Assembly (NCBI GenBank): GCA_036273515.1
Contig: DASUHM010000090.1
Coordinates: forward strand, 1 to 43,020
Source: Gaiellales bacterium
Lineage (GTDB): Bacteria > Actinomycetota > Thermoleophilia > Gaiellales > JAICJC01
DNA length: 43,020 nucleotides
Direction: 5' to 3'
Each line of letters starts with the position of its first letter. The first letter of the stretch is position 1. A program made the position numbers and the translations under genes. The notes under the pieces were generated by a model that saw nothing but the letters and a program-made list of their open reading frames with translations, ran no database searches and had not been told where the DNA came from. Below, piece after piece: positions 11,763 to 15,408 of the stretch.

Positions 11763-12545
11763 ATGTCGAGCGACCGCGCATCCGATGGCATGACGGGCGC
11801 CTTCGTCTTCGCCGCGGTCGCCATCGTGCTGGTGATCGTGGGCGTCGCCGTCACGGCGTGGCTGGGCGGTCGCGCGAACGCGTCCGGACGCACGACGACC
11901 GTCGTGCGCGCCACCGGCTCGACGACCCCTGCGTCGAACGTCAGCCCCGTCGTGGCCGCTGGGGCGCACGACTACAACCAGTTCGCCTGCGCGCAGTGTC
12001 ACGGCATCGGCGGCGTGGGCGGCGTGTCGGCCGACGTGCCGGCGCTGAACAGGCTCGGCGCGGCGTTCACGGTCGCGCAGCTGCGGCAGATCATCGAGCA
12101 CGGCCTGGGCGAGAGCGCCAACCCGACCAAGCCGTACATGCCCGTCTGGCACGGGATCGTCTCGTCGCGGCAGGTGTCAGAGCTCGCCGCCTACATCCGC
12201 GCCGGTCTTCCCGCCGTGTCGGGTGCCACGCCGGTGCAGGTGCCGACCGACCAGGGCCTCGCCGTCGAGGGATCCGCGCTCTACGTCCGCGACGGCTGCA
12301 TCAACTGCCACGGTCCGAACGGCCTCGGCGGCGTGCCCAACCCGCAGTCGCCCGACAAGACCATCCCGCCGCTCTCCGGCGCCGACTTCCGCAACGAGTT
12401 CAACACGCCGGCCAAAATCGCGAACGTCATCCGCTCGGGCAGCGTCATCGGCCGCGCCCCGATCGTGAGCATGCCGCACTGGGGCGGGATCCTGCCCGCG
12501 GGCGACGTGCGGGCGCTGATCGCCTACCTGGCAACGCTTCAGTAG
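11763..12545 (+). CDS. membrane-anchored dihaem cytochrome c
   Basis: A 260-residue protein with an uncleaved-looking signal anchor near residues 11-36 (GAFVFAAVAIVLVIVGVAVTAWLGG) and two class I cytochrome c domains outside the membrane. Haem-binding CxxCH motifs are CAQCH (Cys76-His80) and CINCH (Cys179-His183). Candidate sixth-ligand methionines are in KPYMPVWHG and SMPHWGG. Such proteins carry electrons to terminal oxidases or other extracytoplasmic acceptors. No oxidase subunit is adjacent. Its stop overlaps the convergent alpha-dioxygenase-like gene by seven bases. Confidence 0.9.
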   Translation: MSSDRASDGMTGAFVFAAVAIVLVIVGVAVTAWLGGRANASGRTTTVVRATGSTTPASNVSPVVAAGAHDYNQFACAQCHGIGGVGGVSADVPALNRLGAAFTVAQLRQIIEHGLGESANPTKPYMPVWHGIVSSRQVSELAAYIRAGLPAVSGATPVQVPTDQGLAVEGSALYVRDGCINCHGPNGLGGVPNPQSPDKTIPPLSGADFRNEFNTPAKIANVIRSGSVIGRAPIVSMPHWGGILPAGDVRALIAYLATLQ

Positions 12546-14461
12546 CCGGGGTCGCCGACGGGTGACCAGGGCTTGAAGCCGTTCTCGAGCTCGCGCAGCG
12601 ACGGTGCCAGGGCCGGGTAGTGGCGCTGGAGCACGTCGACGAAGCGCGTGCCCTCGATCCAGTCGATCCCGGTCTGCGTGTAGGTCGAAGGGCTGTAGTC
12701 GTCGGTGAGGAAGCGGTCGCTGTTGATGCGCCGCGACGCCATCAGGATGAAGATCCGGAAGGCGGTGTCGCTGAACGCGAAGCCGCGCGGCGGCTGCTCG
12801 GCGAACATCCCCACGATCACGTCCATCCGCTCGACGTCGCCGTAGAGCCGGCGCAGCCGGTCGACCAGCTCCTGGTCGTCGGTCAGGTCCTCGAAGTCGT
12901 CCGCCGGGCGCAGGTGGAGCAGGCGTCGGAACTCGTTGTAGCGCGGCACGCCCAGCTCGCGGGAGCGGAGGATGTCGGTCGCCGCAATGTCCATCAGCTT
13001 GCCGTCCGGCCGCTGGAACTCCTGCAGGAAACGGGGGAAGTTGTTGAGCACGATCGCCCCGGGATGCGCGTTGCCGAACGAGTAGAGCAGGTCGAGCATG
13101 CCGATCCGGTCGAGCGCCGTCTGCGAGCCCGGGCCGGACAGCTCGCGCAGGGTGAGCCGGTCGAGCTCGTGCCCGTCGGCAGCCGAGCGGAACGTGTAGT
13201 CGTCGGCGATCAGCGGGTGCATCCGGTAGACGATCGTGAACTCCTCGGTGAGCGCGTAGGGCACGCCGAAGTGGTCGTGCTTCGAGCCCGGGATGCCGCT
13301 GATCACCTCGCTCGAGCTGATCCGCCCGAACGCCCGCTTCACCCGCTCGCCGGCGATGCCGTACCAGTTGGCCCGCATCGCGATCTCCATCGTGGGATGG
13401 GCGATCACCGCCGGCGTCCACTCGACCGTGTGGATCTTCGCCAGCAGCGCGGCCAGGATCAGGCGGGCGCGCTGGAAGAGCTCCTCGTCGCTCCAGGCCG
13501 GGTACTCGGCCGCGAGGCGATCGCAGATCGCGTTGTGCTCGAGCGTGAACAGGTTCACCAGCATCTGCAGGCCGACCCAGAACCCGGGCACGAGGCGGGG
13601 GTCATGGGCCGGGTCGTCCGGCAGCGGCACGACGCCGTTGGCGTCGACGTGCAGCTTGCCGCCCGTGCCGGTGCGGACGGCCTTCTGCGCTTCCGGGTCG
13701 ACGCCGTAGAGCTGGGAGCCGTCCCACCAGTGGGTCGCCGTCACGTTCAGGAACGTCGGCGGGAAGTCCGCGTTCGGGGGGCGGGTGGTGTCGGGCACGG
13801 TCTTGAGGACGGTGAGCGGCGGCTCCGGCCAGGGGTCGCCCTGCTCGAGCGGGATCTCCCAGCGGTTCGCGGGATCGCCGCGGCCGTGGCTGAACCAGTC
13901 CTTGATCATGAACTGGATCCACGAGGCGGCGAACAGGTTGAGCGACTCGGCCGGGATGAACTCGTGGCGGGTGAGGAGCTCGCGGCTGACCGTGCGCGGG
14001 TTTGGTTCCATGAGCAGCTCGTCCGTCTCGGCCTGTGTGGCCGCGAGCGGGACGTTGCGGCCGAAGCGCGAGCCGAGCATGCCCATCCGCGGCTCGTTCA
14101 GGTCGTTGTAGACGCCCGTCTCGGTGCGGTTCACGAGGAACGCCGCGTCGTATTCGGGCAGCGGCGGCAGGTTCACGGATGCCTCGCCGCTCGTGTCGTA
14201 CAGGTTCTCCTGGCGCAGGATGTTGCGCAGGCCGATCAGCGTCGCCAGGCCGAGCGGCACCGGCAGCTTGTCCCAGCCCACCGCCCGGTCGGCGGCCGCG
14301 CATACGCCGTCGTAGAGCCGCCAGCCGGCCGTGTCCCGGTAGACGGAGCCCGACACGGCGTCGGGGCCCTCCGGCTCCGACAGGAGCCGCCAGGCCGCGC
14401 GGCCGGCGACCACCACGCTCCCGGCGACGAGCCCCGTGCGGAGCAGCTTGCCCGCGCTCAC
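12539..14461 (-). CDS. alpha-dioxygenase-like haem peroxidase with distal His replaced by Lys
   Basis: A 640-residue protein of the animal haem peroxidase superfamily, with alpha-dioxygenase length and motif order: WIQFMIKDWFSHG, HWWDGSQLYG, EHNAICDRL, AKIHTVEWTP, MRANWYGIAG, VPYALTEEFTIVYRMH. In plant alpha-dioxygenases, which add O2 to the alpha carbon of fatty acids, the first block reads QFMIHDW with the distal haem His; here that residue is Lys187 (codon AAG). The catalytic Tyr412 and proximal His415 (YRMH) are retained. Starting at GTG 14461, it overlaps the previous gene by GTGA, so translation is probably coupled. A hydrophobic N-terminal stretch (TGLVAGSVVVAGRAAW) could anchor it in the membrane. 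Activity may be changed or lost. Confidence 0.85.
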   Translation of the reverse strand: MSAGKLLRTGLVAGSVVVAGRAAWRLLSEPEGPDAVSGSVYRDTAGWRLYDGVCAAADRAVGWDKLPVPLGLATLIGLRNILRQENLYDTSGEASVNLPPLPEYDAAFLVNRTETGVYNDLNEPRMGMLGSRFGRNVPLAATQAETDELLMEPNPRTVSRELLTRHEFIPAESLNLFAASWIQFMIKDWFSHGRGDPANRWEIPLEQGDPWPEPPLTVLKTVPDTTRPPNADFPPTFLNVTATHWWDGSQLYGVDPEAQKAVRTGTGGKLHVDANGVVPLPDDPAHDPRLVPGFWVGLQMLVNLFTLEHNAICDRLAAEYPAWSDEELFQRARLILAALLAKIHTVEWTPAVIAHPTMEIAMRANWYGIAGERVKRAFGRISSSEVISGIPGSKHDHFGVPYALTEEFTIVYRMHPLIADDYTFRSAADGHELDRLTLRELSGPGSQTALDRIGMLDLLYSFGNAHPGAIVLNNFPRFLQEFQRPDGKLMDIAATDILRSRELGVPRYNEFRRLLHLRPADDFEDLTDDQELVDRLRRLYGDVERMDVIVGMFAEQPPRGFAFSDTAFRIFILMASRRINSDRFLTDDYSPSTYTQTGIDWIEGTRFVDVLQRHYPALAPSLRELENGFKPWSPVGDPGY

Positions 14462-14856
14462 GTCGCCGCTCCCGTTCGGCGCTCGCCGGCACCGGCGGTC
14501 AGGGCGAGGGCGGTGTTGAGCGCCGAGATCGAGGTCACGATCAGCGCGGGCCGGGCCGGGATCTGACGGGTCAGGCCGGCGAGCGCGGCCGACGCCGTGT
14601 CGCTCGCGTGGATGATCGGCGCCGTTCGCACCGAGGCCTGCCGCAGCTCGCCCTCCGGCAGCAGCAGCTGGAGCCCGATCACGACCGTGCGGACCCCGAA
14701 CATGCGGAAGACGTACTGGACGGCCTGGTTGTCCTCGCGGCGCACGCCCAGGTTGCGGGCAAGCAGCGCCGGCGCGACGAGTGCGGCCGATCCGTTGACG
14801 ATCCGGATCGCCGCCAGCGCCACGCGGGCGAGACCGGGTACGCGGCTGGTTGGCAT
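14458..14856 (-). CDS. small membrane-associated protein of unknown function
   Basis: A 132-residue protein with hydrophobic segments near residues 8-33 (ARVALAAIRIVNGSAALVAPALL) and 105-123 (ALIVTSISALNTALALTAG), and a weaker one in the middle (VRTVVIGLQLLLP). The arrangement resembles DUF4267-type small membrane proteins, but this is only a resemblance. It is the middle gene of a three-gene minus-strand unit, overlapping the haem peroxidase start by four bases, so it probably acts with that enzyme or helps its membrane placement. Confidence 0.7.
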   Translation of the reverse strand: MPTSRVPGLARVALAAIRIVNGSAALVAPALLARNLGVRREDNQAVQYVFRMFGVRTVVIGLQLLLPEGELRQASVRTAPIIHASDTASAALAGLTRQIPARPALIVTSISALNTALALTAGAGERRTGAAT

Positions 14857-14916: not shown

Positions 14917-15408
14917 CTACTTCAGGAACTGCCAGACGATCAGGGCGACCAGGTAGATGGTCGCGTAGGCGACCACGAGCGCCTGCACGGTCAGCGCCGA
15001 GAGCTCGCGGACGGTGAAGTGGGTGGTGCGGAGCCAGGCGATCTTCACGACCTCGCCCGTCAGCATGAAGAGGCAGAAGAGCGACACCAGGCCGCCGGGG
15101 CCGGGCACGGCCAGGAGCGCGTAGAGCATCCCCACGTGGGCGATGTTGTTGAATACCACGAAGACCATCGCGATCAGCTCCCGCTCGATCAGCCGGTCGC
15201 CGATGGCGAACAGCAGGCCGAGCTCGGCGACGCCGAGCACGACCATCTCGGCGATGTGGATGCCGTCGGGCGAATGCAGCGTCCGCCCGAGCGCCTGCGC
15301 GAGCGCGACGTACGCGACCAGGAACGCGATCGCCTTCACCGCCGTCTCGGCCCACGCGAGCGGCTCGTACGTGCCGACATGCCACGCCCGCTGTTCCGTT
15401 GCCGCCAT
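14917..15408 (-). CDS. four-helix membrane protein, first gene of the haem peroxidase operon
   Basis: A 163-residue integral membrane protein. Hydrophobic segments lie near residues 23-42 (AVKAIAFLVAYVALAQAL), 52-70 (IAEMVVLGVAELGLLFAIG), 76-120 (two helices including MVFVVFNNIAHVGMLYALLAV) and 140-162 (LVVAYATIYLVALIVWQFLK). One His (NNIAHVG) and one Lys (EVVKIAW) fall inside membrane segments. The family is not recognised. It is followed after 60 bases by the 132-residue gene and is divergent from glucokinase, with 39 bases between them. Confidence 0.7.
   Translation of the reverse strand: MAATEQRAWHVGTYEPLAWAETAVKAIAFLVAYVALAQALGRTLHSPDGIHIAEMVVLGVAELGLLFAIGDRLIERELIAMVFVVFNNIAHVGMLYALLAVPGPGGLVSLFCLFMLTGEVVKIAWLRTTHFTVRELSALTVQALVVAYATIYLVALIVWQFLK

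Follow-up and report, generated by a model that had tools for sequence, protein, structure and literature searches.

A gene for an alpha-dioxygenase (alpha-DOX) in which lysine replaces the distal haem histidine lies at 12539-14461 of the window, meaning here the whole stretch of 43,020 nucleotides that was analysed (Gaiellales bacterium, assembly GCA_036273515.1, contig DASUHM010000090.1). Enzymes of this type form 2(R)-hydroperoxy fatty acids. Judging from sequence comparisons, we lean towards an active alpha-DOX of a bacterial subfamily in which a cation, Arg in general and Lys in the window genome, has taken the place of the distal His. The change to Lys187 is real and old, since a whole bacterial clade has Arg or Lys at the site, and it is probably functional.

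The protein and its distal haem site

14461..12539, minus strand: alpha-dioxygenase-type haem protein, cationic-distal variant; open frame with a GTG start, 640 amino acids (aa)
13901..13903, minus strand: codon AAG, Lys187 in place of the distal histidine (rice His157), placed by the sequence and the plant alpha-DOX alignments

By sequence and predicted fold the 640-aa protein is an alpha-dioxygenase, and the family assignment made in the initial annotation was right. Among solved structures, phmmer ranks the alpha-DOX of rice (4kvj, E 8e-118) and Arabidopsis (4hhr, E 5e-112) first, with COX and mammalian peroxidases far below, and in Pfam the protein matches An_peroxidase (PF03098, E 1.8e-100). 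The structure model, with a predicted local distance difference test score (pLDDT) of 89.5, superimposes on rice 4kvj with a Z of 44.5 and a root-mean-square deviation of 2.2 over 571 aligned residues at 37% identity; an N-terminal hydrophobic stretch has low confidence in the model. Full-length homology and the animal haem peroxidase/alpha-DOX fold, which together mark the family, are both present. The 98-contig assembly of the window genome contains only this one copy of a dioxygenase gene.

The block WIQFMIKDWFSHG aligns without gaps with both plant structures in the phmmer alignments, and Lys187, encoded by AAG at 13903-13901, stands opposite the distal His, which is His157 in rice numbering (PMC8720084). 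The protein thus lacks the residue that is typical of alpha-DOX and that serves as acid-base catalyst in the classical peroxidases of the MPO, LPO and COX type. This comparison with characterised plant enzymes bears out the substitution read from the letters alone, and likewise the retention of Tyr412 and His415 in the YRMH motif, which align with the catalytic Tyr379 and the proximal His382 of rice. A His from elsewhere in the distal pocket does not take over, as the Lys/Arg clade has gained no conserved His of its own: apart from position 375, which is distant in sequence from the distal segment, every His conserved in the clade is frequent among His-type sequences too.

The cationic clade and its linked positions

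Relatives were collected from genome contigs and by sampling the lineage to which the window belongs at class, family and phylum level; genomes of Amycolatopsis, Nocardioidaceae, Chloroflexi and a Streptomyces-type genus supplied further ones. At the 154 distinct loci that cover the site, the distal residue is His in 110, Arg in 39, Lys in four (window included) and Asn in one. In the main tree, built from 152 sequences with column 187 excluded, the Arg/Lys/Asn sequences fall, with few exceptions, into one clade with a support of 97 (Shimodaira-Hasegawa-like approximate likelihood ratio test, SH-aLRT, 97-98), and an earlier tree of 92 sequences agrees on it. This main clade spans Actinomycetota, Chloroflexota and Acidobacteriota, including Streptomyces, Amycolatopsis and Motilibacter, and has 33 Arg, four Lys (window included), one Asn and three nested His at the site; a separate Arg lineage of three sequences (L103, L107, L177) lies outside. 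As to whether a clade of homologues shares the Lys, the clade as a whole is without the distal His, but Arg predominates, with Lys, Asn and His as variants. Parsimony requires nine changes at site 187 over the tree, and the nested pattern of states suggests that Arg was ancestral in the main clade and later changed to Lys (in the window and Motilibacter, and in some Streptomyces), to Asn, and back to His.

For conservation, the 38 main-clade rows without His at the site were compared with 107 His-type rows, and 41 Arg/Lys/Asn rows represent both Arg lineages together. The positions that matter most are the following.

13913..13915, minus strand: Gln183, distal Gln, four residues N-terminal to Lys187; Gln in 38 of 38 clade rows
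13226..13228, minus strand: Tyr412, catalytic radical Tyr (rice Tyr379); invariant in the clade (38 of 38) and in the His-type set
13217..13219, minus strand: His415, proximal haem ligand (rice His382); invariant, 38 of 38 clade rows
13430..13432, minus strand: His344, fatty-acid carboxylate site (rice His311); 38 of 38 clade rows
12728..12730, minus strand: Arg578, fatty-acid carboxylate site (rice Arg559); 37 of 38 clade rows, one gap
13583..13585, minus strand: Gly293, linked change in the loop aligned with the distal-pocket wall of COX-1, from alignment counts
12953..12955, minus strand: Leu503, linked change, from alignment counts

The carboxylate-binding role of rice His311 is given in the title of a study cited in PMC8720084. 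Asp188 and Phe408 are also invariant in the main clade and Thr349 is found in 37 rows; the remaining Ca2+-site residues are kept, with Thr or Ser at 243 and, in one row, Gly at 247. Of the 96 positions that are conserved among His-type sequences, 87 are kept. Two positions go along with the distal one. Position 293 is Gly in all 41 Arg/Lys/Asn rows and Asn, Ser, Asp or Thr in 107 of 111 His rows, and position 503, an Arg in 106 of the 107 His-type relatives, is Leu, Val or Met in the main clade. In the phmmer table, window residues 291-348 align with residues 291-348 of full-length COX-1. An association of 293 with 187 is plausible in space, because 293 sits beside COX-1 Val291, which has been described as lying close to the distal ligand (PMC13049297). 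Residue 302 (13558-13556) is His in 105 of the 107 His-type bacterial relatives and Gln in rice; it is variable in the Arg/Lys clade, where most members have lost the His, and Val in the window protein.

Selection on close Arg/Lys pairs is clearly purifying, though it may be slightly weaker than on the His type: the ratio of nonsynonymous to synonymous substitution rates (dN/dS) is 0.14-0.28 in the former and 0.08-0.14 in His-type pairs. The value of 0.62 between the window and Motilibacter was discarded, being unreliable at such divergence.

Gene neighbourhood and catalase-related partners

14458..14856, minus strand: small membrane protein, 132 aa, weak DUF4267 match; overlaps the dioxygenase start by 4 bp
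14917..15408, minus strand: second predicted membrane protein, upstream; no family match
L216 (contig C42, 14000-30000), 3614-7967 and 9160-10341: partner cluster of the window genome
L037:5974-8898, L039, L052, L054, L061, L066, L087, L106: fusions, dioxygenase then catalase-related domain
L109, L123, L159-L164, L072, L218, L219, L221: fusions, catalase-related domain then dioxygenase

The small membrane protein is a conserved partner, homologues of which lie close to the dioxygenase in 17 of 40 loci; no homologue of the second one was found beside the relatives' dioxygenases. A di-haem cytochrome c gene (11763-12545, plus strand) is convergent with the dioxygenase gene, and the two 3' ends share 7 bp (12539-12545). 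Cytochrome c genes also adjoin the relative in R. phaseoli (L218) and lie near that in Qingshengfaniella (L220).

A three-gene run, found repeatedly in Streptomyces, Amycolatopsis and others, encodes a 560-aa protein, a DyP-type peroxidase and a 395-aa protein. The DyP-type peroxidase matches TIGR01413 (E 4e-31) and, by profile, 8re3 in the PDB (E 6e-83). The profile of the 395-aa protein matches catalase-related proteins, first 3e4w (E 0.0024), which we take to be a catalase-related mini-protein, and then the coral allene oxide synthase 1u5u; Pfam Catalase is matched by two of the 14 members of this family (best E 2e-4), and single-sequence searches of Pfam and the PDB gave no match. The 560-aa protein (L021:7791-9482, L200:1039-2773 and relatives) accompanies the DyP/catalase-related pair in most loci examined, is sometimes split into two open reading frames of ~150 and 424 aa, and has no match in Pfam or NCBIfam. 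Genes for a patatin-like phospholipase, a GMC oxidoreductase and a P450 are also present around the relatives' dioxygenases. In the window genome, the 560-aa, DyP and catalase-related genes lie together with a GMC-oxidoreductase-like stretch on contig C42, and the dioxygenase lies on C90. Strong matches to a standalone catalase-related gene occur in 14 of 35 genomes of the Arg/Lys/Asn clade, in none of 19 His-only genomes and in none of 20 without a dioxygenase (Fisher p ~0.001, a value that ignores kinship and comes from a profile built partly from the same genes).

In His-type relatives, a catalase-related domain is fused to the dioxygenase itself, at the C-terminus in mycobacteria and at the N-terminus in Streptomyces, a cyanobacterium and rhizobia, which results in proteins of ~950-1100 aa. 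The coupling of dioxygenase and catalase-related protein in three architectures is the best evidence for a hydroperoxide as the dioxygenase product and for its use by a catalase-related enzyme, which has already been reported for the product of the Nostoc 10S-DOX (PMC13049297). The neighbours of the relatives and the fusions together suggest a hydroperoxide metabolism. The L218, L219 and L221 fusions sit on large Rhizobium/Phyllobacterium plasmids of nodule bacteria, a conjugative one in R. phaseoli, and the plasmid-borne fusions are, where annotated, called only 'peroxidase family protein'.

Peroxide activation, alternatives and known systems

In alpha-DOX, H2O2 oxidises the haem and a Tyr radical forms, which then carries the fatty-acid oxygenation, and the rice enzyme is without peroxidase activity, though other alpha-DOX have it (PMC9305512). 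Peroxide activation is a starter reaction, because the radical, once made, carries the oxygenation. For the Lys187 enzyme we infer a peroxide-activating site that is rebuilt around the cation and has weak or altered peroxidase activity. H2O2 or a hydroperoxide would still oxidise the ferric haem of the Arg/Lys enzyme, with the positive charge, together with Gln183, polarising the peroxide in place of acid-base catalysis by His. The oxidised haem would give rise to the Tyr412 radical, which would take the alpha hydrogen of the fatty acid, and addition of O2 would yield the 2-hydroperoxide. A poor peroxide activator should suffice, because the cycle needs radical formation only at its start, and such an activator would spare the enzyme's own hydroperoxide product from reduction; this product may then decay to the aldehyde that is shorter by one carbon, or go to the catalase-related haemoprotein and the DyP peroxidase. 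A dispensable or absent distal His has precedents in the superfamily, as catalysis is only reduced in the distal-His mutant H203Q of the fungal 8R-DOX, and the cyanobacterial 10S-DOX differs at this position (PMC13049297).

Several points weigh against this reading. Arg or Lys alone may activate peroxide poorly, given that in B-class DyP the H2O2 is deprotonated by the distal Asp and not by the distal Arg, which DyP also has (PMC6153280), and the variation at site 187 (Arg, Lys, Asn, three nested His) is also compatible with a relaxed constraint. The paired test of 187 against 293 or 503 had at most one informative pair out of five, and a strong statistical co-evolution of 187 with either position was not reached, as significance is out of range with few independent events. 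The partner cluster was not found linked to the window dioxygenase, the partners being on another contig, nor is it exclusive to the Arg/Lys clade, as the His-type Chloroflexi relative L025 has it as well.

It may be, although we consider it unlikely, that the distal site is dispensable and that residue 187 drifts in an ordinary alpha-DOX, with no special role for Arg or Lys. Such a drift would fit the interchange of Arg, Lys, Asn and His inside the clade and the nine changes over the tree, the merely lowered catalysis of the 8R-DOX mutant (PMC13049297), and the little peroxidase activity that alpha-DOX need (PMC9305512), but in the main clade 37 of the 38 rows without His have a cation, which is not a random set, Gly293 goes with every Arg/Lys/Asn row, and a second lineage reached Arg separately. 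To about the same low degree it can be considered that the clade comprises dioxygenases without a peroxidase function of their own, in which the Tyr radical is primed without a distal His, possibly aided by the co-encoded DyP or catalase-related proteins that would also consume the product; if this is true, bacteria would have an oxylipin pathway in which the haem functions are divided.

A different oxidant chemistry, which the initial annotation had proposed, is less likely still. The enzyme could use organic hydroperoxides, catalyse a peroxygenase or isomerase step, or have its iron ligated by Lys, and this would be in line with the joint change of the near-invariant positions 187, 293 and 503, with the loss of the otherwise invariant His302 in most clade members, and with DyP and catalase-related partners that handle peroxides. 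The oxygenase-site residues are unchanged, however, and ligation by Lys is disfavoured as a general feature of the clade, as Arg, the commonest state, is not expected to ligate iron. From the residues compared, it is simplest to assume that the tyrosyl-radical chemistry is unchanged and that the peroxide-activating site is rebuilt and probably weaker.

The distal His is held to be essential for peroxide activation in classical peroxidases, and its loss could thus indicate a pseudoenzyme, a signalling haem protein or another non-catalytic role, which had been the second proposal. This is improbable, as the catalytic Tyr, the proximal His, His344, Arg578 and the Ca2+ ligands are kept along with most family-conserved positions, the gene context is conserved, and selection is purifying in the close pairs. 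A sequencing error or misalignment can be dismissed, as the alignment with solved structures is gap-free, Lys is found also in Motilibacter and two Streptomyces genomes, and Arg or Lys occurs in 36 other main-clade sequences and in ~40 other sequences overall.

Whether the COX/alpha-DOX superfamily needs a distal His to initiate its tyrosyl-radical cycle has been probed mostly by mutation. A natural clade whose closely related members carry Arg, Lys, Asn or a re-gained His offers a ready test of the role of the distal residue and of the second-site changes that permit the loss of the His. The linked genes and fusions indicate a largely unstudied bacterial pathway of fatty-acid hydroperoxides, and an alpha-DOX without peroxidase side activity would help fatty aldehyde production.

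In a 2021 survey of the family, the catalytic Tyr (in all sequences) and the proximal His were conserved and the distal His only 'partially conserved' (PMC8720084), which is why the distal His is better regarded as typical of alpha-DOX than as strictly defining. While this partial conservation has been published, the cationic clade, its linked changes and its gene cluster appear to be undescribed, no description having been found in a literature search that left most subscription papers outside.

With the plant alpha-DOX (rice 4kvj/4kvl, Arabidopsis 4hhr), the window protein has in common the fold, the catalytic Tyr, the proximal His, the carboxylate-binding His and Arg, the Ca2+ site and the distal Gln, and it differs by Lys for the distal His, Gly for Asn at 293, Leu for Arg at 503 and the hydrophobic N-terminal stretch. 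The cyanobacterial CalDOX and LepDOX belong to the same bacterial family, with Calothrix and Leptolyngbya relatives ~50% identical to the window protein, but these enzymes of the characterised type retain the distal His (H131 and H132; PMC8720084). The 10S-DOX of Nostoc punctiforme, a haem dioxygenase that acts on fatty acids and belongs to the same superfamily, also differs from COX at the distal His position, and its product goes to a catalase-related hydroperoxide lyase; it is set apart from the window enzyme by TDS instead of THQ and by oxygenation at C10, not C2 (PMC13049297). In the coral fusions of allene oxide synthase or hydroperoxide lyase with lipoxygenase, a catalase-related haemoprotein is likewise coupled to a fatty-acid oxygenase, which is a lipoxygenase there (PMC5617202) and an alpha-DOX here, with the partner encoded by a separate gene in the Arg/Lys clade.
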